A DNA stretch of 64,000 bases from Actinophytocola algeriensis (GTDB lineage Bacteria; Actinomycetota; Actinomycetes; Mycobacteriales; Pseudonocardiaceae). The notes under the pieces are model-generated. The model was not told the origin of the DNA. It was given only the letters and a program-made list of their open reading frames with translations, and did not search any database. Of the stretch, positions 344 through 9,633 are shown piece by piece. The stretch is from contig NZ_JACHJQ010000012.1 in assembly GCF_014203735.1 (NCBI RefSeq), positions 62,001 to 126,000 of the forward strand, in the 5' to 3' direction. The position numbers and the translations under genes are program-made. Numbering within the stretch: position 1 is the first letter of the stretch; each line of letters begins with the position of its first letter.

Positions 344-1300
344 ATGCCGCTTGACCCGCAGTTCGCCGCCATGCGTGCGGAACGCATGGCGCGTGGGGCG
401 ACACCGTTGTACGAGATGACGCTCGCGCAGGCGCGTGCCGCCGACCTCGCGGACATCCGCGCGGCGGGCGGGGACGCCGAGCCCGTGTTCGAGGTGACCG
501 ACGGGACGTTCCCCGGCAGGCGGGGCGTGCTGCCGGTACGCGTCTACCGCCCGTCCGCCGACCGTCCACTCGGGACATTGGTGTACTTCTTCGGCGGTGG
601 CTGGACACTGGGCGGCATCGACACGTCCGACGGCGTCTGCCGGGCACTCGCGAACGCCGCCGGGTGCCTGGTCGTCACCCCGGGCTACCGGCTGGCGCCC
701 GAGCACCCGTTCCCCGCTGCCGTGGACGACTGCCTCGCCGCGGTCGAGTGGGTGGCCAGGAACGCGGAGGCGCTGGGCGCCGACCCCGACCGGATCGCGG
801 TCGGTGGCGACAGCGCGGGCGGGAACCTGGCGGCCGTGGTGGCCCAGGAGGGCAAGGATGTCGGCCCCCGACTCGCCGCGCAGGTGCTCGTGTACCCGAA
901 CACCTGCTACCGCTCCGGCACCGACTCGTTGCGCGACAACGACGACAGGTGGCTGTTCAACCACCACTCCGTCGACTGGTACTGGCGCAACTACCTCCCC
1001 GACCCCGGCGCGGGCCGCGACCCCCGGGTGTCACCGCTGCTCGCCCCGGACCTGTCGAGGCTGCCACCCGCGCTCGTGATCACCGCCGAGTACGACCCGC
1101 TGCGCGACGAGGGCGAGCGCTACGCCGAGCGGATGCGGGCGGCCGGGGTGCCGGTGGAACTGACCCGTTACGACGGGATGGCGCACGGGTTCTTCACCAT
1201 GTCCGGGGTGCTGCCCGACGCCCGCCGTGCCGTCGCCCAAGCCGCGGAGTACCTGCGGAAGATGCCGGCCCTCCAGGGGACGCGGGCCGATGACGCGTGA
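344..1300 (+). CDS. Alpha/beta hydrolase, HSL-type esterase family
   Basis: A 318-residue cytoplasmic hydrolase of the hormone-sensitive-lipase (bacterial type IV esterase) family. The nucleophile elbow GDSAGG puts Ser at about residue 157; Asp251 (EYDPLRDEG) and His281 (AHGFF) complete the triad. The oxyanion-hole motif, normally HGGG, reads FGGGW (residues 83-87), so the leading His is replaced by Phe. No signal peptide is seen. The stop overlaps the start of the FMN oxidase by 11 bases, so the two genes are probably co-translated, which suggests it hydrolyses an ester or amide connected with that pathway. The substrate is unknown. Confidence 0.85.
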   Translation: MPLDPQFAAMRAERMARGATPLYEMTLAQARAADLADIRAAGGDAEPVFEVTDGTFPGRRGVLPVRVYRPSADRPLGTLVYFFGGGWTLGGIDTSDGVCRALANAAGCLVVTPGYRLAPEHPFPAAVDDCLAAVEWVARNAEALGADPDRIAVGGDSAGGNLAAVVAQEGKDVGPRLAAQVLVYPNTCYRSGTDSLRDNDDRWLFNHHSVDWYWRNYLPDPGAGRDPRVSPLLAPDLSRLPPALVITAEYDPLRDEGERYAERMRAAGVPVELTRYDGMAHGFFTMSGVLPDARRAVAQAAEYLRKMPALQGTRADDA

Positions 1301-2393
1301 CGACCCGCTGACCGTCGCCGACGTCGCCCGGCTCGCGCAGGCGCGGCTGCCGAAGGAGCTGTGGGACTACGTCGCGGGCGGCAGCGGCGCGGAGACGACC
1401 CTCGCGGCCAACCGGGCCGCGCTCGACGAGGTGGCGGTGCTGCCCAGGGTGCTGGCGGGCGTGGCCGCGCCGGACCCCGGGACCCGGCTGCTCGGCTCCG
1501 CGTCCTCGCTGCCGCTCGCCGTGGCGCCGATGGCCTACCAGCGACTCCTGCACCCCGACGGCGAGCTCGCCACCGCCGAGGCCGCCGAGGCGGCCGGCGT
1601 GCCGTTCGTGGTGAGCACCCTGGCCAGCGTGACGGTGGAGGAGGTCGTGAAGACCGGCGCCACCACCTGGTTCCAGCTCTACTGGCTGCGCGCGCCAGGT
1701 GTCGTCGAGGACCTCGTGGCGCGGGCCGAGGACGCGGGTTGCGAGGCGCTGGTCGTGACCGTCGACGTACCGGTCATGGGGCGGCGGCTGCGCGACGTGC
1801 GCAACTCGTTCGTGCTGCCGGACGACGTGGTCGCCGCACACCTCACCGGCGGCGGCGACGGCACTGCGAGCCGCGCGCACGCCCGGGAAGCCGGGACATC
1901 GGCGATCGCCGCGCACACCGCGGCCGCGTTCGCCCCCGGACTCGGGTGGTCGGACCTCGAGTGGTTGCGCGACCGGACGTCACTCCCGCTGGTGCTGAAG
2001 GGGATCCTCGACCCCCGGGACGCCGTGCGCGCCGCCGGGTGCGGGGTGGACGCGGTCGTGGTGTCCAACCACGGCGGCCGCCAGCTCGACGGGGCGGCCC
2101 CGAGCATCGCCGCCGTGCCCTCGGTCGTGGCGGCGCTGGCCGGGCAGGCCGCCGTGTACCTCGACAGCGGGATCCGCACCGGCACCGACATCCTCCGCGC
2201 GCTGGCGTCCGGCGCGGACGGCGTGCTCGTCGGCAGGCCCGTGCTGTACGGGCTGGCGGCCGACGGCGCGCCGGGCGCCGGCCGTGTGCTTTCCCTGCTG
2301 GCCGAGGAGTTCCGCGACGCGATGACGTTGGCCGGGTGCGCCGACGTCGCCGCGGTGCGGGAGTTGTCCACCGTTCGAACTGTGAGGGCCTGA
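1290..2393 (+). CDS. hmo: FMN-dependent alpha-hydroxyacid oxidase (Hmo-like)
   Basis: A 367-residue TIM-barrel flavoprotein of the glycolate/lactate/mandelate oxidase family that oxidises a 2-hydroxy acid to a 2-keto acid. The diagnostic motif SNHGGRQLDG is near residues 258-267 and supplies the catalytic His and the substrate-binding Arg; the FMN-binding segments DSGIRTGTDI and GVLVGRPVLYG follow. The start at ATG 1290 lies inside the hydrolase end, and an in-frame upstream extension has no family similarity. The stop overlaps the aminotransferase start by one base. An oxidase directly before an HpgT-like aminotransferase matches the Hmo-HpgT pair of 4-hydroxyphenylglycine formation. The family is certain; the hydroxymandelate substrate is inferred from context, and no HmaS gene is present. 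Confidence 0.8.
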   Translation: MTRDDPLTVADVARLAQARLPKELWDYVAGGSGAETTLAANRAALDEVAVLPRVLAGVAAPDPGTRLLGSASSLPLAVAPMAYQRLLHPDGELATAEAAEAAGVPFVVSTLASVTVEEVVKTGATTWFQLYWLRAPGVVEDLVARAEDAGCEALVVTVDVPVMGRRLRDVRNSFVLPDDVVAAHLTGGGDGTASRAHAREAGTSAIAAHTAAAFAPGLGWSDLEWLRDRTSLPLVLKGILDPRDAVRAAGCGVDAVVVSNHGGRQLDGAAPSIAAVPSVVAALAGQAAVYLDSGIRTGTDILRALASGADGVLVGRPVLYGLAADGAPGAGRVLSLLAEEFRDAMTLAGCADVAAVRELSTVRTVRA

Positions 2394-3814
2394 TGACCGT
2401 CGTCGACCTGACCGGAGCGCTGTCCGAGGACCGGTCGCCCGCCGTGGTGCTGGCACCCGTCGCGGAGCTGCCGCCACGCCGCACACCCGTGCGCACGGAC
2501 CTGTCCACCGAGGAGCTGCACCCCTCGCTGGAGGACCCGGCGCTGACGTCGATGAACCTCCTCAACGAGATCGCGAACCACTACCCGGACGCGGTGTCGT
2601 TCGCGGCGGGCCGCCCCTACGAGGAGTTCTGGGACGTCGACGACCTCCCGAGGTACCTCGCCCGGTTCACCGAGCACCTGCGCACGGATCTGGGCTACAG
2701 CGAGGAAAGGGTGCGCAGGACGCTGTTCCAGTACGGGCGCACCAAGGGGATCGTGCACGAGCTGGTGGCCGCCAACCTGGAGCTGGACGAGGACATCCGC
2801 GTCGACCCGGAGTCCATTGTGGTCACGGTCGGCTGCCAGGAGGCGATGGTCCTGGTGCTGCGCGCGCTCCGGTCCGGCCCGAAGGACGTACTGCTCGCCG
2901 TGTCGCCCACCTACGTCGGCCTCACCGGCGCGGCGCGGCTGGTCGACATGCCGGTGCTGCCGGTCGCGAGCGGCGCGGCGGGCATCGACTTCGACGACCT
3001 GCTCGACCAGGTCCAGGGCGCCCGCGCCGCCGGGCTGCGGCCACGCGCCCTGTACGTCATGCCGGACTTCGCGAACCCCTCCGGTGTCAGCATGACGGAG
3101 AAGACGCGCAGGACACTGCTGCAGCTGGCGCGCGAGGAGGACTTCCTGCTGCTGGAGGACAACCCGTACGGCCTGTTCCACAGCGGCGAGCGGGTGCCGA
3201 CGTGCAAGGCGCTCGACGAGCAGCGCCGCGTCGTGTACCTGGGTTCGTTCGCGAAGACGGTCCTGCCTGGCGCGCGGGTCGGCTACGTGGTGGCAGACCA
3301 GACGGTGACGGGCCCGGACGGCTCGGCCGGCCTGTTGGCGGACGAGTTGTCGAAGATCAAGAGCATGCTGACCGTGAACACGCCCGCGTTGGCACAGGCG
3401 ATCGTCGGCGGCAAGCTCCTCGAGCACGGATGCAGCCTGGTGCAGGCCAACGAGGGGGTGCGGGAGGTCTACGCGGCGAACCGTGCCCGGCTGGCCGACG
3501 GGCTCGCCGCCCGCTTCGGTACCGGCTCTCCGGTCACGTGGAACGCCCCCGCCGGTGGCTTCTTCGTGGTGGTCACCGTCCCCTTCCCGGCCGACGACGC
3601 GCTGCTGACCCGCTCGGCCCGCGACTACGGCGTCCTCTGGACACCCATGCACCACTTCTACGACGTGGACGGCCACGGCAGGAACGGCACGCGTTCCCTG
3701 CGGTTGTCCTGCAGCGTGCTGACGCCGGAACAGATCGACACCGGTCTGGACCGCCTGGCTCTCTTCATCACCGACGAACTGGCGAGAACGCGCCGTGGTG
3801 CGGAAGTGAGGTAA
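2393..3814 (+). CDS. hpgT: PLP aminotransferase, hydroxyphenylglycine transaminase-like (HpgT)
   Basis: A 473-residue fold-type I class I/II aminotransferase. The stretches SFAAGRPYEEF, RRTLFQYGRTKGI and VTVGCQEAM resemble HpgT of glycopeptide pathways and PglE-type phenylglycine transaminases. The PLP lysine is about residue 288 in SFAKT, with the downstream GARVGY phosphate-binding segment. About 45 residues precede the conserved core (SLEDPALTSMN). HpgT uses tyrosine as amino donor to convert a (hydroxy)phenylglyoxylate to (hydroxy)phenylglycine. It is coupled to the preceding oxidase (TGATG overlap), which would supply the keto acid. A different aryl or alkyl glyoxylate is possible. Convergent terminators follow. 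Confidence 0.8.
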   Translation: MTVVDLTGALSEDRSPAVVLAPVAELPPRRTPVRTDLSTEELHPSLEDPALTSMNLLNEIANHYPDAVSFAAGRPYEEFWDVDDLPRYLARFTEHLRTDLGYSEERVRRTLFQYGRTKGIVHELVAANLELDEDIRVDPESIVVTVGCQEAMVLVLRALRSGPKDVLLAVSPTYVGLTGAARLVDMPVLPVASGAAGIDFDDLLDQVQGARAAGLRPRALYVMPDFANPSGVSMTEKTRRTLLQLAREEDFLLLEDNPYGLFHSGERVPTCKALDEQRRVVYLGSFAKTVLPGARVGYVVADQTVTGPDGSAGLLADELSKIKSMLTVNTPALAQAIVGGKLLEHGCSLVQANEGVREVYAANRARLADGLAARFGTGSPVTWNAPAGGFFVVVTVPFPADDALLTRSARDYGVLWTPMHHFYDVDGHGRNGTRSLRLSCSVLTPEQIDTGLDRLALFITDELARTRRGAEVR

Positions 3815-3819
3815 ATCTT

Positions 3820-3853
3820 CGCGCCCGGCGGAATGTGGTTTCCGCCGGGCGCG
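3820..3853 (+). terminator. Terminator hairpin after the hpgT-like gene
   Basis: Perfect 14-bp stem (arms 3820-3833 and 3840-3853) with a 6-base loop, 5 bases after the aminotransferase stop. The core arm is GCGCCCGGCGGAA. Confidence 0.8.
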
Positions 3854-3868
3854 ACAATTCCTGACGGG

Positions 3869-3896
3869 CAGGACGGAAATCGACGTCCTGTCTTTT
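3869..3896 (+). terminator. Second hairpin with T-tract
   Basis: Inverted repeat CAGGACG / CGTCCTG (3869-3875 and 3884-3890) followed directly by TCTTTT. It is a weak backup of the classical rho-independent form for rightward transcription. Confidence 0.5.
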
Positions 3897-3932
3897 GTCG
3901 TGTCTCGTCGTTGTTTTGCCGCCGGCACGACA

Positions 3933-3970
3933 GTGGGCCCGTGTCGCGGAATTCCGCGACACGGGCCCAC
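3933..3970. repeat. 38-bp perfect palindrome between convergent genes
   Basis: Two 19-base arms meet with no unpaired centre (the core is GGAATTCC). It lies 9 bases beyond the stop of the small peptide gene on the minus strand and can act as its terminator or as a 3'-end stabiliser. Confidence 0.7.
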
Positions 3971-3979
3971 CGGTTTCAA

Positions 3980-4135
3980 CTAGCTGAGTCCGGCCCCGGC
4001 CTCGAGCTCGCTGCCGCCGAACGCGCGCTCGGCCTCGCCACCACCGAAGTTGACTTCGCTGCCGCCGAAAGCCTGCTCGGCCTCGCCGCCACCGAACTGC
4101 GCCTGCTCGAACTCACTGCCACCAAACGTGCCCAT
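3980..4135 (-). CDS. Small repetitive FGG(S/G)E peptide, candidate modified-peptide precursor
   Basis: A 51-residue acidic peptide built from five pentapeptides, alternately FGGSE and FGGGE (residues 4-8, 14-18, 23-27, 30-34, 39-43), with spacers FEQAQ, AEQA, VN and AERA and the tail LEAGAGLS. The start at ATG 4135 is set by an excellent ribosome site, AAAGGAG, 8 bases upstream (4144-4150). A -35/-10 pair and an inverted repeat lie just before it, and a strong palindrome follows the stop, so it looks like a dedicated transcript. It has no Cys, Ser-rich or leader-like segment of a known class that I can name. It is adjacent to a KASIII-like gene on the same strand and to the oxidase-aminotransferase pair. 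The gene is well supported; a role as precursor is inference. Confidence 0.65.
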   Translation of the reverse strand: MGTFGGSEFEQAQFGGGEAEQAFGGSEVNFGGGEAERAFGGSELEAGAGLS

Positions 4136-4170
4136 GTGGGGGTCTCCTTTGTCGAGGGTATTACAGAAAA

Positions 4171-4199
4171 AGTATCCAGAGTATTCCTCCCTGCCGCAA
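4171..4199 (-). promoter_or_regulatory. Promoter of the small peptide gene
   Basis: On the minus strand, -35 TTGCGG (4194-4199), a 17-bp spacer and -10 GATACT (4171-4176) stand about 30 bases before the AAAGGAG/ATG of the peptide gene. The layout is that of a sigma-70 type promoter. Confidence 0.5.
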
Positions 4200-4221
4200 G
4201 CTGCATTCGCTCCGGAATACT
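4180..4221. promoter_or_regulatory. Candidate operator: spaced inverted repeat AGTATTCC/GGAATACT
   Basis: Perfect 8-bp arms at 4180-4187 and 4214-4221 flank and overlap the -35 element and spacer of the peptide promoter. The 26-bp spacing suggests two half-sites for a dimer or tetramer, or DNA looping. The cognate regulator is not known; the HxlR regulator of this cluster is one candidate. Confidence 0.4.
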
Positions 4222-4308
4222 GCGCCGAACGGCTGCTGTCGTTGGTGCCGAATGGTGTTCCAGGTGGATTACTCACGGTCCGTCATGGGTGTTCGTGAAA
4301 TGCGCCGC

Positions 4309-5244
4309 TCAGTGCTCGACAACCATCGCGGAGAAGATGGCGCCGTACGCGGCAGAAGCCATGAGATAGCGGTCTCCCGCCCTCAGCATCCCGCTGTCCA
4401 CGGCGGTGCGGTAGTTCAGGAAGGGGTCTGCCGCGAACGTGTGGCCGATCAGGGGCACGTTGTCCAACAGCACGGCCGTCGGCGGCAGCCCGAGCTGCCT
4501 GCACACCTTCCGCCATGACCGCACGTTCACGTTGTGCGGCAGGATCAGCCGGAGTTCGTCGACGCGCAGCCCGGCCCGCTCGGCGGCGGTGCTGATCACC
4601 TCGGCCACCAGCACGGTGTACTCCTTGGCGAAGCGCTCCGCGTGGTCCGGGCGGTCGGTGGCCCAGTGGTCGAGGTCGCCGCGCTGCAGCGTCGCGTAGC
4701 TCAGCACCCGATCGCGCCCGCCTGCCGAGGACACGAGGCAGGCGGCGGACGCCTCCCCGAAGATCCGCGCCTCCGGCCGCAGTGTCTCGTCGAGGGTGAA
4801 GACCTGCTCGGCGGCGACGATCAACGCGAGCGCGTCCGGGTCACCGTCCAGCGCGAGCAGCCGCCCGGCCATGTCCACCGCCAGCAGCCCCGCGGCACAC
4901 CCGTGGTGGGTGACCGCGAAGGCGGTCGCGCCACCCACGCCGAGCTGTTCGCACACGTCCGGCAGCGGGTTCAGCGGGTGGGGCTGCGAGACCGGCACGG
5001 TGCGCGCGTACAGCACGTAGCGGATCTGGTTCCGGAGCGCGGCCAGTGACGGCAGGTTGTGCGCGGCCCGCACCAGGAGGTCGGTCAGCGTCTCGCCCGG
5101 CTGCTGGCGGCGTACCTCCGAGTAGCCGTAGGACCGCCGCAGGGTGTCGACAGTGGAGGCGGGCAGCTGCCAGTCGGCGAGCAGCTCCTCGAGCGGTACC
5201 AGGCGATCCGGCAGGTGACCCGCGATCTCGCGGAGAGCGGTCAT
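4309..5244 (-). CDS. KASIII-like 3-oxoacyl-ACP synthase/acyltransferase
   Basis: A 311-residue thiolase-fold protein related to FabH-type ketosynthase III. The active-site Cys is residue 116 (HHGCAAG) and the first catalytic His is 237 (LPHNVN). The third position, usually Asn in a GNT motif, reads IGHTFA with His268, giving a Cys-His-His arrangement like KAS I/II rather than FabH Cys-His-Asn. Such proteins can do C-C condensation or acyl transfer to O or N. The start at ATG 5244 has GAAGGA 7 bases upstream. It is divergent from the thioesterase across only 29 bases and upstream of the repetitive peptide gene on the same strand. The acyl donor and acceptor are unknown. Confidence 0.75.
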   Translation of the reverse strand: MTALREIAGHLPDRLVPLEELLADWQLPASTVDTLRRSYGYSEVRRQQPGETLTDLLVRAAHNLPSLAALRNQIRYVLYARTVPVSQPHPLNPLPDVCEQLGVGGATAFAVTHHGCAAGLLAVDMAGRLLALDGDPDALALIVAAEQVFTLDETLRPEARIFGEASAACLVSSAGGRDRVLSYATLQRGDLDHWATDRPDHAERFAKEYTVLVAEVISTAAERAGLRVDELRLILPHNVNVRSWRKVCRQLGLPPTAVLLDNVPLIGHTFAADPFLNYRTAVDSGMLRAGDRYLMASAAYGAIFSAMVVEH

Positions 5245-5273: not shown

Positions 5274-5705
5274 ATGACGGGAGAACGCACCGGCCACTTC
5301 TGGGATGCCGTCGAGGGCCGGGCGCCGATGCCCGCGGCGACGATCACGCTGGGCTGGTCGCTGATCCACGCCGACACCGAGCGGGGCGAGATCGAGGTCT
5401 CCTTCGAGGCGTCCGAGGAGTTCCTCAACCCCGCGGGCAGCGTCCAGGGTGGTTTCCTGACCGCGATGCTCGACGACACCATGGGCCCCGCGCTCGCGGC
5501 CACGCTGGGGCCGGGCCTGTACGGGACGACCATCGATCTCAAGGTGAGCTTCCTGCGGCCGGCCAAACCCGGGCGGCTGGTGGGCCGCGGGCGGGTCGTG
5601 CACCGCGGCAGCACCATCGCCTTCCTGGCGGGCGAACTGCTGGACGACGCCGGGCGGGTGGTGGCCGTGGGGTCGGCGACCACCCGGATCGTGCGGACCG
5701 GCTGA
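5274..5705 (+). CDS. PaaI-type hotdog acyl-CoA thioesterase
   Basis: A 143-residue single hotdog domain of the PaaI/4HBT type. The segment NPAGSVQGGFLTAMLDDTMGPA (about residues 51-72) is the usual helix with the N/H-x-G-x-x-x-x-x-D/E-type catalytic region; KVSFLRPAKPGRLVGRGRVVH forms the downstream sheet. It would release free acid from an acyl-CoA or acyl-carrier thioester. Start ATG 5274 shows no Shine-Dalgarno, and TACTACTGT lies just upstream, so a leaderless transcript is possible. In the phenylglycine pathway a thioesterase (PglD) acts just before the transaminase, which parallels the HpgT-like gene here, but the parallel is only suggestive. Confidence 0.8.
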   Translation: MTGERTGHFWDAVEGRAPMPAATITLGWSLIHADTERGEIEVSFEASEEFLNPAGSVQGGFLTAMLDDTMGPALAATLGPGLYGTTIDLKVSFLRPAKPGRLVGRGRVVHRGSTIAFLAGELLDDAGRVVAVGSATTRIVRTG

Positions 5706-5728: not shown

Positions 5729-7021
5729 TCACCCGGTGGTGTCGGCGGTGAGCCGGGCGTCCACACCGGACCGGTAGCGCAGCAAGGGGATCATGGTCAC
5801 CACCAGGCACAGGGTTCCGGACAGGATGATCGCGGGCTGCAGCCCGAAGCCGGCGACCGCGAGCCCGGCGATGGTCGCGCCGAACGCGAGGCTGCTGCCG
5901 GAGACCGCGGTCACCATGCCGAACACGCGGTTCTGCAGTTCGACCGGGACGCGGGCGTAGAGCATCGCGCCGAGAATCGGCCGGAACGCCGCCTGGCTCA
6001 CCCCGCAGAGCGCAGAGACGACGAGTATCACGACGAGGCTGTCGGTCAGCCCGAGCGTCAGCTGCCGTGGAGCGACGCACAACGCCACGCTGACGCAGAA
6101 AGTCAGGTACCGCGGCAACTTCGGCCCGAAGACGGTGAACGCGATGTTGCCCCCGATCGCACCGAACGCGAACGCGCTGAGGATGAGCCCGACCGCGGTC
6201 GCCTCACCGAAGTGCTCGTCCACCCACAGCGGCACGAACACCGCGTAGTTGGCGACGGTGAACAGGTTCACCACCGAGGTCATGGCGAGCATCCCGACCA
6301 GCAGCCGGTCCTGCCACAGGTGACCGGCGCCGCGCCGCAGTGCGGTGAAGTACCCCTCCTTCACCGCCGAGTCGCGGTCCGGCAGGGTGCCGGCCGGCGG
6401 GTGCACCAGCAGTCCGATGAGGAGTGCGGACAGGGCGAAGCTCGCCGCGTCGAACCAGATCGCGCCCTGCGGTCCCAGCCAGACGATCAACAGGGCGCCG
6501 AGCGGCGCGGCCGTCACCATCGCCACGTTGCCGGCCCCGTCGTAGATGGCGGTGGTCCGGATGATCTTCATGCCCGCCGCGTCGCTGACGGGACGGAGCA
6601 GGACGTGCTGGGCCCGGCCGCCGACACCGGTGAGCGCGCCCTTGACCGCGACCAAAGCGGCCAGCGGGAGGAACCCGATGTCCGGCGTCACCGCGACGAC
6701 GGCCATGGCGAGCGCGGCGGCGCACTCCGCGACGATCAGCGTGCGCCGGATCCCGAACCGGTCGGTCAGCGGGGTGGCGAACACCCCGGCCAGCAGGGCG
6801 GGCACGACCGAGGCCATGGAGATCAGGCCCATCTTCGCAGCGCTACCGGTGCTGGTCAGCACCAGCCACGGCACGGCCACCGTCGTCACCACGCTGCCGA
6901 GCATGGACACGACGTGGCCCGTCAACAGCGCGGCGAGCCCGATCCTGCTGGCGGTCCGGCTCCTGCCCGGTGTCTCGCCACCAGGTGCCTCGCTGCCCGC
7001 CGCCTCGTTGACCGCGCTCAA
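5729..7021 (-). CDS. MFS transporter, probable exporter
   Basis: A 430-residue membrane protein with about 12 hydrophobic segments. The loop-2/3 motif DRFGIRRTL (typical MFS G-x-x-x-D-R-x-G-R-R form) follows the second helix, and a charged central loop (about residues 200-225) divides two six-helix halves. The likely start is TTG at 7021, in a TTGA overlap with the stop of the ligase gene; no better start exists near the first helix. It is co-transcribed with the acyl-AMP ligase. The family resembles MFS drug or siderophore exporters, so it may export the cluster product and give self-resistance. Confidence 0.8.
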   Translation of the reverse strand: MSAVNEAAGSEAPGGETPGRSRTASRIGLAALLTGHVVSMLGSVVTTVAVPWLVLTSTGSAAKMGLISMASVVPALLAGVFATPLTDRFGIRRTLIVAECAAALAMAVVAVTPDIGFLPLAALVAVKGALTGVGGRAQHVLLRPVSDAAGMKIIRTTAIYDGAGNVAMVTAAPLGALLIVWLGPQGAIWFDAASFALSALLIGLLVHPPAGTLPDRDSAVKEGYFTALRRGAGHLWQDRLLVGMLAMTSVVNLFTVANYAVFVPLWVDEHFGEATAVGLILSAFAFGAIGGNIAFTVFGPKLPRYLTFCVSVALCVAPRQLTLGLTDSLVVILVVSALCGVSQAAFRPILGAMLYARVPVELQNRVFGMVTAVSGSSLAFGATIAGLAVAGFGLQPAIILSGTLCLVVTMIPLLRYRSGVDARLTADTTG

Positions 7022-8571
7022 TCCGCCGTGCTTTCGACCAGCACGTGCTCGGCCGCGTACTTCTCGCGCAGCTGCCGGGTGTTCGTCTTGCCACTGCCGG
7101 TCCTGGGCAGGTCGTCGACGAACTCGAACGACCGCGGCGTCCACACCCAGCTGAGCTTCTCCTTGACCAGAGCGGAAAGCTCCTCCTCGGTCACCGTGGC
7201 GTCCTCGGTGAGCACGAGGTAGGCGTGGGCGGCCTCCCCGAGTTCCTGGTGCGGCACACCGATCACGGCGGCCGCGCGGACCTGCGGGTGGGTCGTCAGC
7301 ACGTCCTCGATCGCGCGCGGGAAGATGTGGTGGCTGCCGTAGGTGGTGATGATCATGTCGCTGGCGCGGCCGGTGAGGTGGATGTAGCCGTCGTCGTCGA
7401 CGTGGCCGAGGTCGCCGGTGCGCACCCAGCCGTCGACGAGCGTCGCCGCGGTCTGCTCCGGATTCCCTACGTACCCGGCGAAGTTGAGCAGGCTGGCCAC
7501 CCACAGCTCGCCGGTCTCCCCGACGGGCAGCACGGTGGTGCCGTCCTCGCCGCGGATCTGCAGCCGGACGTCGCCGTACGCGGGTCCACACGAGCCGATC
7601 CGGTCCGGGTCGGTGCCGACACCGGGATACGCGGAGATGAAGGGCGATTCCGACAGCCCGTAGGTGATGCGGACGACCGGGCCGAAGCGGTCGACGGCCT
7701 CCCGCAGCCGCACCGGGTTGGTGGCCGCGGTGCCCACGCTCAGCACGGCCATCGCGGACAGGTCGCGCTTGTCGATGTCGGGGTGGTCCAGGATCTCGTA
7801 GAGCATCAGCGGGGTGATGAACGTGGAGTTGACCTGTTCGCGCTCCAGCAGTTCGAGGAACTCCGTGGCGCGGAAGAACCGTGAGACCAGCAGTGTGCCG
7901 CCGGTGAACAGGTACAGGAACGCCGAGGTCTGCCCGGCGACGAACCACATCGGCGTGATGGAGAGGTGGCGGTAGCGCGGTTCGTCCGCCGCGAGGATGT
8001 GCTCGGCGAGCGTGATCAGCTGCTCGTAGAGGTTCGCCGTGTGGAGCAGCGGCTTGGGAATCCCGGTGGTGCCGCTGGTCTGGAAGACCGACTCCGGCGT
8101 CCCGGTCGCATCGTCCACATCGAAGGGTTCCGCGCCTTCGGGCCGCGGCGCGAGGATGTCCGGACCGGCCCCGCCCGGCCCGACGCAGTACGCCGGGATC
8201 CCGAGCCGGTCGACGAGCTCCTGGCCGATGCGCTCGTGCACCGCGACCTCGTAGAGCAGTGCCTCCGGCCGCACCTGCTCGAGATAGGCGGTCAGTTCCA
8301 CGGGGGTGCTGGCGTTCGACACCCACGCGGTGCGGCAGCCGATCAGGTGCAGTGCGAGCTGGATCGCGTGGGCGTGCGGCGGATAGCCCAGGAGCATCCC
8401 CACCGTGGTACCCGGTCGCAGCCCCGAATCCACGAGGTTCGCCGCGATGTCGAGCGTCGCGGCGTGGAGATCGGCGTAGGTCAACCGGGTCTCGCCGTTG
8501 ACCAGAGCCTCGCGGTCCCCGTACTCCGCGAAGAGTTCCAGTGCGCGCACCACGTAGTCCGGGGAACTCAT
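7018..8571 (-). CDS. Acyl-AMP ligase (ANL superfamily acyl-CoA synthetase)
   Basis: A 517-residue adenylate-forming enzyme. The P-loop motif TSGTTGIPKP is near residue 168, the adenine motif YGLSES near 300, the hinge WVRTGDLGHVDDDGYI near 390, and the catalytic Lys lies in PRTGSGKTNTRQLRE near the C-terminus. Start ATG 8571 follows GGAG at 8 bases. It would activate a carboxylic acid as acyl-AMP and pass it to CoA or a carrier, giving a substrate for the two KASIII-like proteins and the thioesterase. It overlaps the MFS gene by 4 bases. The acid is unknown, and no carrier protein is encoded nearby. Confidence 0.85.
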   Translation of the reverse strand: MSSPDYVVRALELFAEYGDREALVNGETRLTYADLHAATLDIAANLVDSGLRPGTTVGMLLGYPPHAHAIQLALHLIGCRTAWVSNASTPVELTAYLEQVRPEALLYEVAVHERIGQELVDRLGIPAYCVGPGGAGPDILAPRPEGAEPFDVDDATGTPESVFQTSGTTGIPKPLLHTANLYEQLITLAEHILAADEPRYRHLSITPMWFVAGQTSAFLYLFTGGTLLVSRFFRATEFLELLEREQVNSTFITPLMLYEILDHPDIDKRDLSAMAVLSVGTAATNPVRLREAVDRFGPVVRITYGLSESPFISAYPGVGTDPDRIGSCGPAYGDVRLQIRGEDGTTVLPVGETGELWVASLLNFAGYVGNPEQTAATLVDGWVRTGDLGHVDDDGYIHLTGRASDMIITTYGSHHIFPRAIEDVLTTHPQVRAAAVIGVPHQELGEAAHAYLVLTEDATVTEEELSALVKEKLSWVWTPRSFEFVDDLPRTGSGKTNTRQLREKYAAEHVLVESTAD

Positions 8572-8802: not shown

Positions 8803-9633
8803 ATGCGTGGAATGTTCGTCACCGGCGCGCCGTCCGAGGACGACCGCGCCCGCACTCCGCTGCGGGTGCACAGCGCGGCGGGCCGGACCTTCGACGAGCT
8901 GACCGGCCAGACGCTGAACCCGACGATGCGCGGCTATGTGAACGACCTGGCTGCCCCGTACGGGCTGGCGGTGCGCGAGGACCTGATCGACCAGGGTGCC
9001 GGCCGTTCCTACGGCGAGATGTGCGTACCCCTGCTGGACGAACTGGTACCCGAGGACCGGCCTGCCGATCTGCTGGTACTGGCCACGGCGATCCCCGACG
9101 TCCGCTACGGCCGTTCCACCGCCACCTACCTGAGCTGGCACTGCGCTGGTGCCCCCCTGGGGTTCACGGTCTGCGATCAGGGACTCCTGGCCGCGTTCAC
9201 CGCACTGCACCTGGTGGAGGCCTACGCACACACCGGCGCGTGCGGGCGAGCCGTGCTCCTGGTGGCAGAACAGCCGACCGTCTACCACGAACTCCCCGTA
9301 CCCACCCCGCTACCGGACCGCGCGGCGGCGGTAGGCGTGGTCCTCGAACCGAACGGCACCCGCTCGGTCCGACGCCACATGAAGATCGCGGAACACGACG
9401 TGGGTGCGGTGCTGTCCCGGTTCTCCGGGACCGTACTGGCCGGCGCGGGCCTGGCGGGGTCGGCACCGGCGAGTTCCTTGGTGTGCCAGGAGAACCAGCC
9501 GTTGACCGGTATCTGGCTGGAGTTGGCGCGACGGCTGCCCGAGTGGAGGGGAAGCGGGGAACAGGTGGTGCTGGCGGAGTACGACCCGGCACTGGGCCAC
9601 CTGTTCACCGCGACCCTCCGCTTCGACGCCTGA
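8803..9633 (+). CDS. Shortened KASIII/thiolase-fold protein, divergent
   Basis: A 276-residue protein that resembles the ketosynthase III fold: VLATAIPDVR (about 93) and FTVCDQGLLAAFTALH (about 121) correspond to the FabH core strand and the helix that begins with the nucleophilic Cys, here Cys124. The usual His and Asn motifs of the second half are not visible, and the protein is about 50 residues shorter than FabH, though the last strand and turn (EYDPALGHLFTATLRF) look intact. Start ATG 8803 has no good ribosome site; GGGGAG is 20 bases away, so the start may differ. It may pair with the other KASIII-like protein as a non-catalytic or acyl-transfer partner. Function is not established. Confidence 0.6.
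   Translation: MRGMFVTGAPSEDDRARTPLRVHSAAGRTFDELTGQTLNPTMRGYVNDLAAPYGLAVREDLIDQGAGRSYGEMCVPLLDELVPEDRPADLLVLATAIPDVRYGRSTATYLSWHCAGAPLGFTVCDQGLLAAFTALHLVEAYAHTGACGRAVLLVAEQPTVYHELPVPTPLPDRAAAVGVVLEPNGTRSVRRHMKIAEHDVGAVLSRFSGTVLAGAGLAGSAPASSLVCQENQPLTGIWLELARRLPEWRGSGEQVVLAEYDPALGHLFTATLRFDA

Follow-up and report, generated by a model that had tools for sequence, protein, structure and literature searches.

The window, that is, the whole stretch of 64,000 nucleotides of Actinophytocola algeriensis DNA that was analysed, contained on its minus strand a small gene for a peptide built of FGG(S/G)E repeats. The gene and the elements surrounding it were:

3931..3972, minus strand: terminator-like hairpin of 19 pairs, identified by folding, with no T-run behind it
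3980..4135, minus strand: FGG(S/G)E repeat peptide, 51 aa, ATG to TAG, recognised by its frame, homologues and purifying selection
4144..4150, minus strand: ribosome-binding site AAAGGAG, 8 nt before the ATG; CAAGGAGG in both homologues
4171..4176, minus strand: -10 element GATACT, 6/6 columns invariant in three genomes
4180..4221, minus strand: inverted repeat AGTATTCC/GGAATACT (arms 4221-4214 and 4187-4180), in the window only
4194..4199, minus strand: -35 element TTGCGG, 17 bp from the -10
4197..4210, minus strand: conserved 14-mer GCGAATGCAGCTTG, over and upstream of the -35

The first-pass annotation had described a frame of 51 residues with five alternating pentapeptides, and this frame was present at 3980-4135 on the minus strand. 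The peptide was acidic and its units were, in order, FGGSE, FGGGE, FGGSE, FGGGE and FGGSE, a strict alternation. Five FGGxE units were never reached in 200,000 shuffles of the peptide's own composition, where the maximum was three, while alternation of S and G across five units would arise by chance alone in 1 case in 16. Comparing the five units with one another, in all ten pairs, gave 20 synonymous and 8 non-synonymous differences, so that the repeat is not a fresh tandem duplication.

Homologues were found in Actinophytocola xanthii 11-183 (39 aa; L006:11070-11189) and in the MAG Actinophytocola sp. Dino_bin25 (34 aa; L005:11067-11171). The window peptide has five FGGxE units, the A. xanthii peptide three and an N-terminal GGSE, and the MAG peptide only two, which are separated by a hydrophobic stretch, FGADSILSVLSVV. 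This stretch between the MAG units resembles the attachment site of a carrier protein. Cys, Lys, Trp, Tyr and Pro were absent from all three copies, and the C-terminal LEAGAG(L/V)S was common to two of them. No match to the peptide was found in Pfam, NCBIfam or the PDB at E 10, which bears out the earlier statement that it belongs to no named family. No publication on this peptide appeared among the papers listed on pheganomycin, Actinophytocola and A. xanthii, hydroxyphenylglycine, hydroxymandelate synthase, PqsBC/KASIII and multi-core precursors, and among the matches listed for FGGSE or FGGGE none looked relevant by title or start of abstract.

An ideal AAAGGAG site and a promoter with 17-bp spacing had also been claimed. 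The former was located at 4150-4144, and AAGGAG preceded the ATG in all three copies, with the reading frame kept. The latter, TTG(C/T)GG-17 bp-GATACT, was present as the same pair with the same spacing in 3/3 homologues. Across the three genomes, the invariant columns amounted to 16/17 over GCGAATGCAGCTTGCGG, 4/17 in the spacer and 6/6 in the -10 element; elsewhere there were 13/39 in the 5' leader and 11/32 just upstream. A sigma-70 consensus scan of 3700-4400 called no promoter, so the assignment rests on conservation. A short stem with a T-run, probably a chance occurrence, was flagged by the terminator scan inside the promoter spacer (4177-4193, minus strand). The 14-mer GCGAATGCAGCTTG occurred exactly once in each carrier genome (3/3), before the peptide gene, and had no exact copy in three other Actinophytocola genomes searched; with one mismatch allowed it was found at 7 places in 4/6 genomes, compared with 22 for a reversed control pattern. 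From these counts, the 14-mer is not an element that recurs across the cluster. The inverted repeat spanning the -35, which had been read as an operator, was present in the window and absent from both homologues.

The palindrome noted after the stop codon proved to be a hairpin of 19 pairs (-44.1 kcal/mol, z -10), and an equally placed strong hairpin was found 3' of the stop in all three copies (-41.1 and -40.7 kcal/mol in the homologues). Its earlier designation as a terminator is only putative, because the window hairpin has no T-run behind it and was not flagged by the terminator scan. A known RNA at the locus was considered and rejected; all 8 Rfam matches up to E 1 overlapped the hairpin and none reached the gathering score, the best being a microRNA model (E 0.00068, 30.3 bits compared with 77.5 needed).

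Codons were paired by repeat unit by hand for the analysis of selection, with gained or lost units excluded. The window and A. xanthii copies, compared over 31 codons, gave dN 0.09 and dS 0.75, from 11.2 differences at 23.5 synonymous sites and 5.8 at 69.5 non-synonymous sites (Fisher test on rounded counts, p 1.1e-4). The MAG copy, with 11 pairable codons, gave dS 1.04 and dN 0.11 against the window and 0.79 and 0.04, respectively, against A. xanthii. Judged from this low dN relative to dS, together with the conservation of promoter, ribosome site, frame and hairpin, the peptide is the product of a translated gene under selection at the protein level.

A profile of the three peptides, searched at E 0.1, matched 39 of 390 family genomes. 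The peptide was accepted as real in three of these, and the other 36 (best E 0.0016) were taken as chance. Weak matches were fetched for 27 of the 36 genomes (L012-L038), the other 9 being left out. None of the 27 loci had two FGGxE in one frame; 26 were other sequence on inspection, while L028 sat at a contig edge. No relative of KASIIIa, TE, MFSb or KAS-like lay beside any of the 27, and ligase matches of 25-33% were seen at 4 of them. Only the three carriers were therefore considered real, given that the next E-value was 0.0016 and that none of the 27 weak loci fetched had two FGGxE in a frame. The only match among 394 genomes sampled from the class, at E 0.001, was the window's own genome; the other two carriers were absent from its matches, so this sample is thin within the genus. 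Among virus contigs, 140 stretches fitted a pattern and none was confirmed as carrying the peptide. The three carrier genomes are few and related, and do not constitute independent evidence.

The peptide gene lies beside genes for acyl-transfer enzymes, and the neighbouring genes described in the window were:

344-1300: alpha/beta hydrolase, best match Abhydrolase_3, lesser match to Peptidase_S9 over the cut-off
1290..2393, plus strand: FMN-dependent dehydrogenase, called HmO-like, from Pfam/NCBIfam scans
2393..3814, plus strand: class I/II aminotransferase, called HpgT-like, convergent with the peptide gene
4309..5244, minus strand: KASIIIa, KAS III family, Pfam ACP_syn_III_C, with C116, H237 and H268
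5274..5705, plus strand: hot-dog (4HBT) thioesterase, from Pfam
5729..6976, minus strand: MFS exporter, start uncertain
7018..8568, minus strand: acyl-CoA ligase (AMP-binding), start codon uncertain
8803..9633, plus strand: KAS-like partner protein, no Pfam match, named from reading its sequence

KASIIIa lies directly upstream of the peptide gene on the same strand, and its orthologues in A. xanthii and the MAG were 79% and 82% identical, with the next matches in the 390 family genomes at 57% or less. The peptide and KASIIIa at 79-100% identity were found in the same 3/390 genomes, whereas a KASIII relative at E 1e-15 was present in 84/390. KASIII genes on plasmids were found in 31 records, all below 60% identity. 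The whole block, consisting of the KAS-like partner, acyl-CoA ligase, MFS exporter, thioesterase, KASIIIa and peptide, was present in 3/3 carriers. Two genomes other than that of the window thus have the peptide beside the same KASIII, so that a lack of conserved homologues with the same neighbours, named earlier as a result that would refute the proposal, was not observed. The peptide gene has transcription signals, is constrained as a coding sequence and is linked to this block.

Cys116, His237 and His268 were invariant in an alignment of 13 KASIII proteins. Directly behind the conserved Gly267, 13/13 of them had His, a place occupied by Asn in FabH. The KAS-like protein (276-304 aa, without a Pfam match; 8803-9633 and L004:7251-8165) resembles a non-catalytic partner, and a relative of it was seen in 30/30 related KASIII loci fetched (L059-L088). 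The nearest solved relatives of the acyl-CoA ligase were fatty-acyl and aryl CoA ligases, which do not fix its substrate.

The larger cluster starts some 22 kb ahead of the window, ends some 11 kb inside it and also has carriers, KAS enzymes, an HPPD-family enzyme, PhyH, DUF3050, a methyltransferase, a P450, a condensation-domain protein and E1-type dehydrogenase subunits. The HpgT/Hmo-KASIII setting that had been proposed for the peptide held for KASIII, adjacent in 3/3. The HmO/HpgT-like genes adjoin the block in the window and A. xanthii, i.e. in 2/3 carriers, and were not found in the examined stretches of two MAG contigs (L005, L088-L090). HmaS, HmO and HpgT are tentative names, given by us and in the first-pass annotation; the HmaS-like protein matched the NCBIfam model of 4-hydroxyphenylpyruvate dioxygenase over the cut-off, while the NCBIfam matches of the HmO- and HpgT-like proteins were all below it. 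In the MAG, related parts of the cluster occur twice, once on contig C63 and once on C160 (L088; L005/L089/L090). Both have genes of the HPPD-family, P450, methyltransferase and PDH types, and the peptide lies only in the part with KASIIIa. Behind the convergent HpgT-like gene of the window there is a terminator-like plus-strand hairpin with a T-rich tail at 3866-3893.

We infer that the peptide is highly expressed and serves the block as a substrate, an acceptor or a docking chain. The explanation that we prefer, tentatively and with well short of even confidence, is that it is a leaderless multi-unit substrate or acceptor of the KASIII block. The peptide would be produced in quantity, the ligase would activate a carboxylic acid, and the KASIII pair would transfer this acid to, or condense it with, the peptide or pieces cut from it at the Glu/Ala-rich spacers. 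The thioesterase would proofread and the MFS protein would export the product. The repeated FGGxE would be the unit that is recognised or modified, which would leave the number of units free to vary. This explanation is favoured because the locus has the anatomy of a precursor gene, with its own transcription unit, near-equal units of variable number, fast change, and an exporter and an acid-activating ligase adjoining. Several points count against it: the peptides have no leader, the cluster scans showed no RiPP-type modifying enzyme or RRE and only one possible peptidase, no PGM1-type ligase was found in the window genome or the MAG, the MAG copy retains only two FGGxE units, and the carriers are few, in three related genomes.

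A modified-peptide precursor with several cores had been suggested earlier. The short gene with a ribosome site, promoter and coding selection accords with a RiPP precursor, and this suggestion is possible, but neither a leader nor a modifying enzyme was found. The first repeat starts at residue 4 of the window peptide, residue 2 of the A. xanthii peptide and residue 4 of the MAG peptide, and none of the three has a leader or recognition region beside a core. No RiPP-type modifying enzyme or RRE was found in Pfam scans of 30 of the 32 listed cluster proteins (E 0.01, some at 1e-5; the peptide was among the 30 and KAS3 was scanned in part, while KASIIIb and ACP3 were excluded), scans that could not reveal a new type of modifying enzyme. 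The sole possible peptidase in the cluster is the alpha/beta hydrolase at 344-1300, in which Peptidase_S9 ranks below the Abhydrolase_3 match.

The same lack of a leader and modifying enzyme places a second explanation close behind. The peptide could be a multivalent docking chain, acidic and putatively disordered, whose repeated short linear motif binds, holds or regulates cluster enzymes such as the KASIII pair or the ligase while itself staying unmodified. The motif recurs at a spacing of 7-10 residues and in a number that varies among the copies, the net charges of the three peptides are -8.5, -6.5 and -3.5, and the peptide co-occurs with KASIIIa in 3/3 genomes, all of which would suit such a chain, as would cluster scans in which no RiPP-type enzyme was seen. 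However, among the 84 family genomes that have a KASIII relative, 81 lack such a peptide, and the disorder is our own reading. We regard docking as only slightly less probable than the substrate or acceptor role.

A third explanation starts from the position of the gene. In 17 of the 30 related KASIII loci, which were those fetched from the matches in 84 genomes, a scan for open reading frames with ribosome sites placed a carrier protein next after KASIII, and direct reading found one in two further loci (L067, L088), for a total of 19/30. The window's own KASIIIb and that of A. xanthii are also followed directly by a carrier protein. The peptide, which occupies this slot behind KASIIIa in 3/3 genomes, could have displaced the carrier protein there and assumed some of its role. 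The sequence FGADSIL in the MAG copy resembles a phosphopantetheine site, and the motif class [LFIVM]G[AGVHTS][DHE]S[LIMV] occurred only 7 times in 1.6 million six-frame residues, repeats from the same DNA included. Yet this GxDS(L/I) motif is present in 1/3 copies, was noticed after the fact, and appeared as the same class in 1937 of 200,000 shuffles of the MAG peptide (about 1%). Moreover, 11 of the 30 loci (L069, L078-L087) have no carrier protein directly behind KASIII. A degenerate carrier was rejected, as none of the three peptides had a PP-binding Pfam match at E 10. Likeness to a carrier was likewise rejected with a profile built from 21 carriers, taken at KASIII genes where a carrier is expected, and 1000 shuffles per peptide; the peptides did not rise above the shuffles, which were at least as good in 533/1000 cases for A. 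xanthii and 766/1000 for the MAG, the window peptide having no reported score. The carrier-like acceptor suggested earlier thus found no homology support in either Pfam or the profile, with its motif in the MAG copy only, and a carrier substitute is unlikely. A more specific form of the idea, in which a KASIII cassette was duplicated and a small ribosomal peptide with repeated FGGxE handles then came to stand in for its carrier, is less probable still; a disordered peptide, in place of a phosphopantetheine carrier, would then receive or present the acyl groups.

It is quite unlikely that the frame is a regulatory small ORF or leader that controls its neighbours through its translation or its transcript. 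Such a role would fit the gene's own promoter, the strong hairpin and the 14-mer, but in the window the hairpin is followed by the HpgT-like gene, which is convergent, and not by a same-strand gene that an attenuator leader could regulate. In addition, selection acts on the amino acids, and no Rfam match reached the gathering score.

We consider equally improbable a classical RiPP precursor of known class, or a pheganomycin-type precursor joined to an arylglycine from the HmO/HpgT-like enzymes. Several repeated units are present, as are HPPD-family (HmaS-like), HmO-like and HpgT-like enzymes in the cluster, and the HmO-like protein has a match below the cut-off to the mycofactocin enzyme MftD, as it has to lactate dehydrogenases. 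An arylglycine is not assured, since the HmaS-like protein was called 4-hydroxyphenylpyruvate dioxygenase by NCBIfam over the cut-off. HmO/HpgT-like genes were not seen beside the MAG copy, nor was a RiPP-type modifying enzyme seen in the cluster scans. Pheganomycin-type ligation was unsupported, with no PGM1_C (PF18105, E 0.01) in the window genome or the MAG, in a search whose control was positive in 2/14 genomes; the single PGM1_C of A. xanthii is on contig C185 (L093, G004:C185:24285-24437) and not on the peptide contig C112. Finally, a spurious frame in GC-rich DNA is hardly credible, for although the frame is short, lies in GC-rich sequence and is overlapped by other open frames on either strand, the start, ribosome site, frame, promoter and hairpin are conserved in three genomes with synonymous turnover.

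Small coding genes like the FGGxE gene can easily escape annotation, and this one lies in a cluster type that otherwise uses discrete carrier proteins. A substrate role would mean that a ribosomal peptide is coupled to KASIII/ligase acyl chemistry without a recognisable RiPP enzyme, and a docking role would make the peptide a genetically simple scaffold for a biosynthetic complex.

Four known systems invite comparison. The carrier protein found behind KASIII in related clusters is small and lies in the same slot downstream of KASIII on the same strand, and the peptides in that slot are acidic. It differs from them in its length (about 90 aa compared with 34-51 aa), in the lack of homology and in the GxDS(L/I) site that is missing from 2/3 peptide copies. 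PqsB and PqsC form a heterodimer. The likeness to them is in layout only, a KASIII near a partner without a recognisable KAS domain, and none of the 22 matched PDB sequences was a chain named PqsC.

The pheganomycin precursor, Pgm2, has several tandem cores, and the primary paper on this system is reportedly that of Noike in 2015. In the part of the source consulted (PMC8939145), PGM1 is described as joining the core peptide to an arylglycine-type acid. The locus resembles the Pgm2/PGM1 system in having a ribosomal peptide beside candidate arylglycine genes. It differs in that the window genome and the MAG have no PGM1_C and that the HmO/HpgT-like genes are not adjacent in 1/3 carriers.

Multi-core RiPP precursors are of the cyanobactin, thiovarsolin and plesiocin types. 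They differ from the FGGxE peptide, which has no leader and in whose cluster the scans found no RRE or known modifying enzyme, and they share with it a short ribosomal gene, near-equal units of variable number and spacers. Membership of the RiPP, pheganomycin-type and carrier groups each failed at least one tested feature, and the claim of membership was lowered as a result; the FGGxE peptide may nevertheless work in a precursor-like manner through its multiple units.
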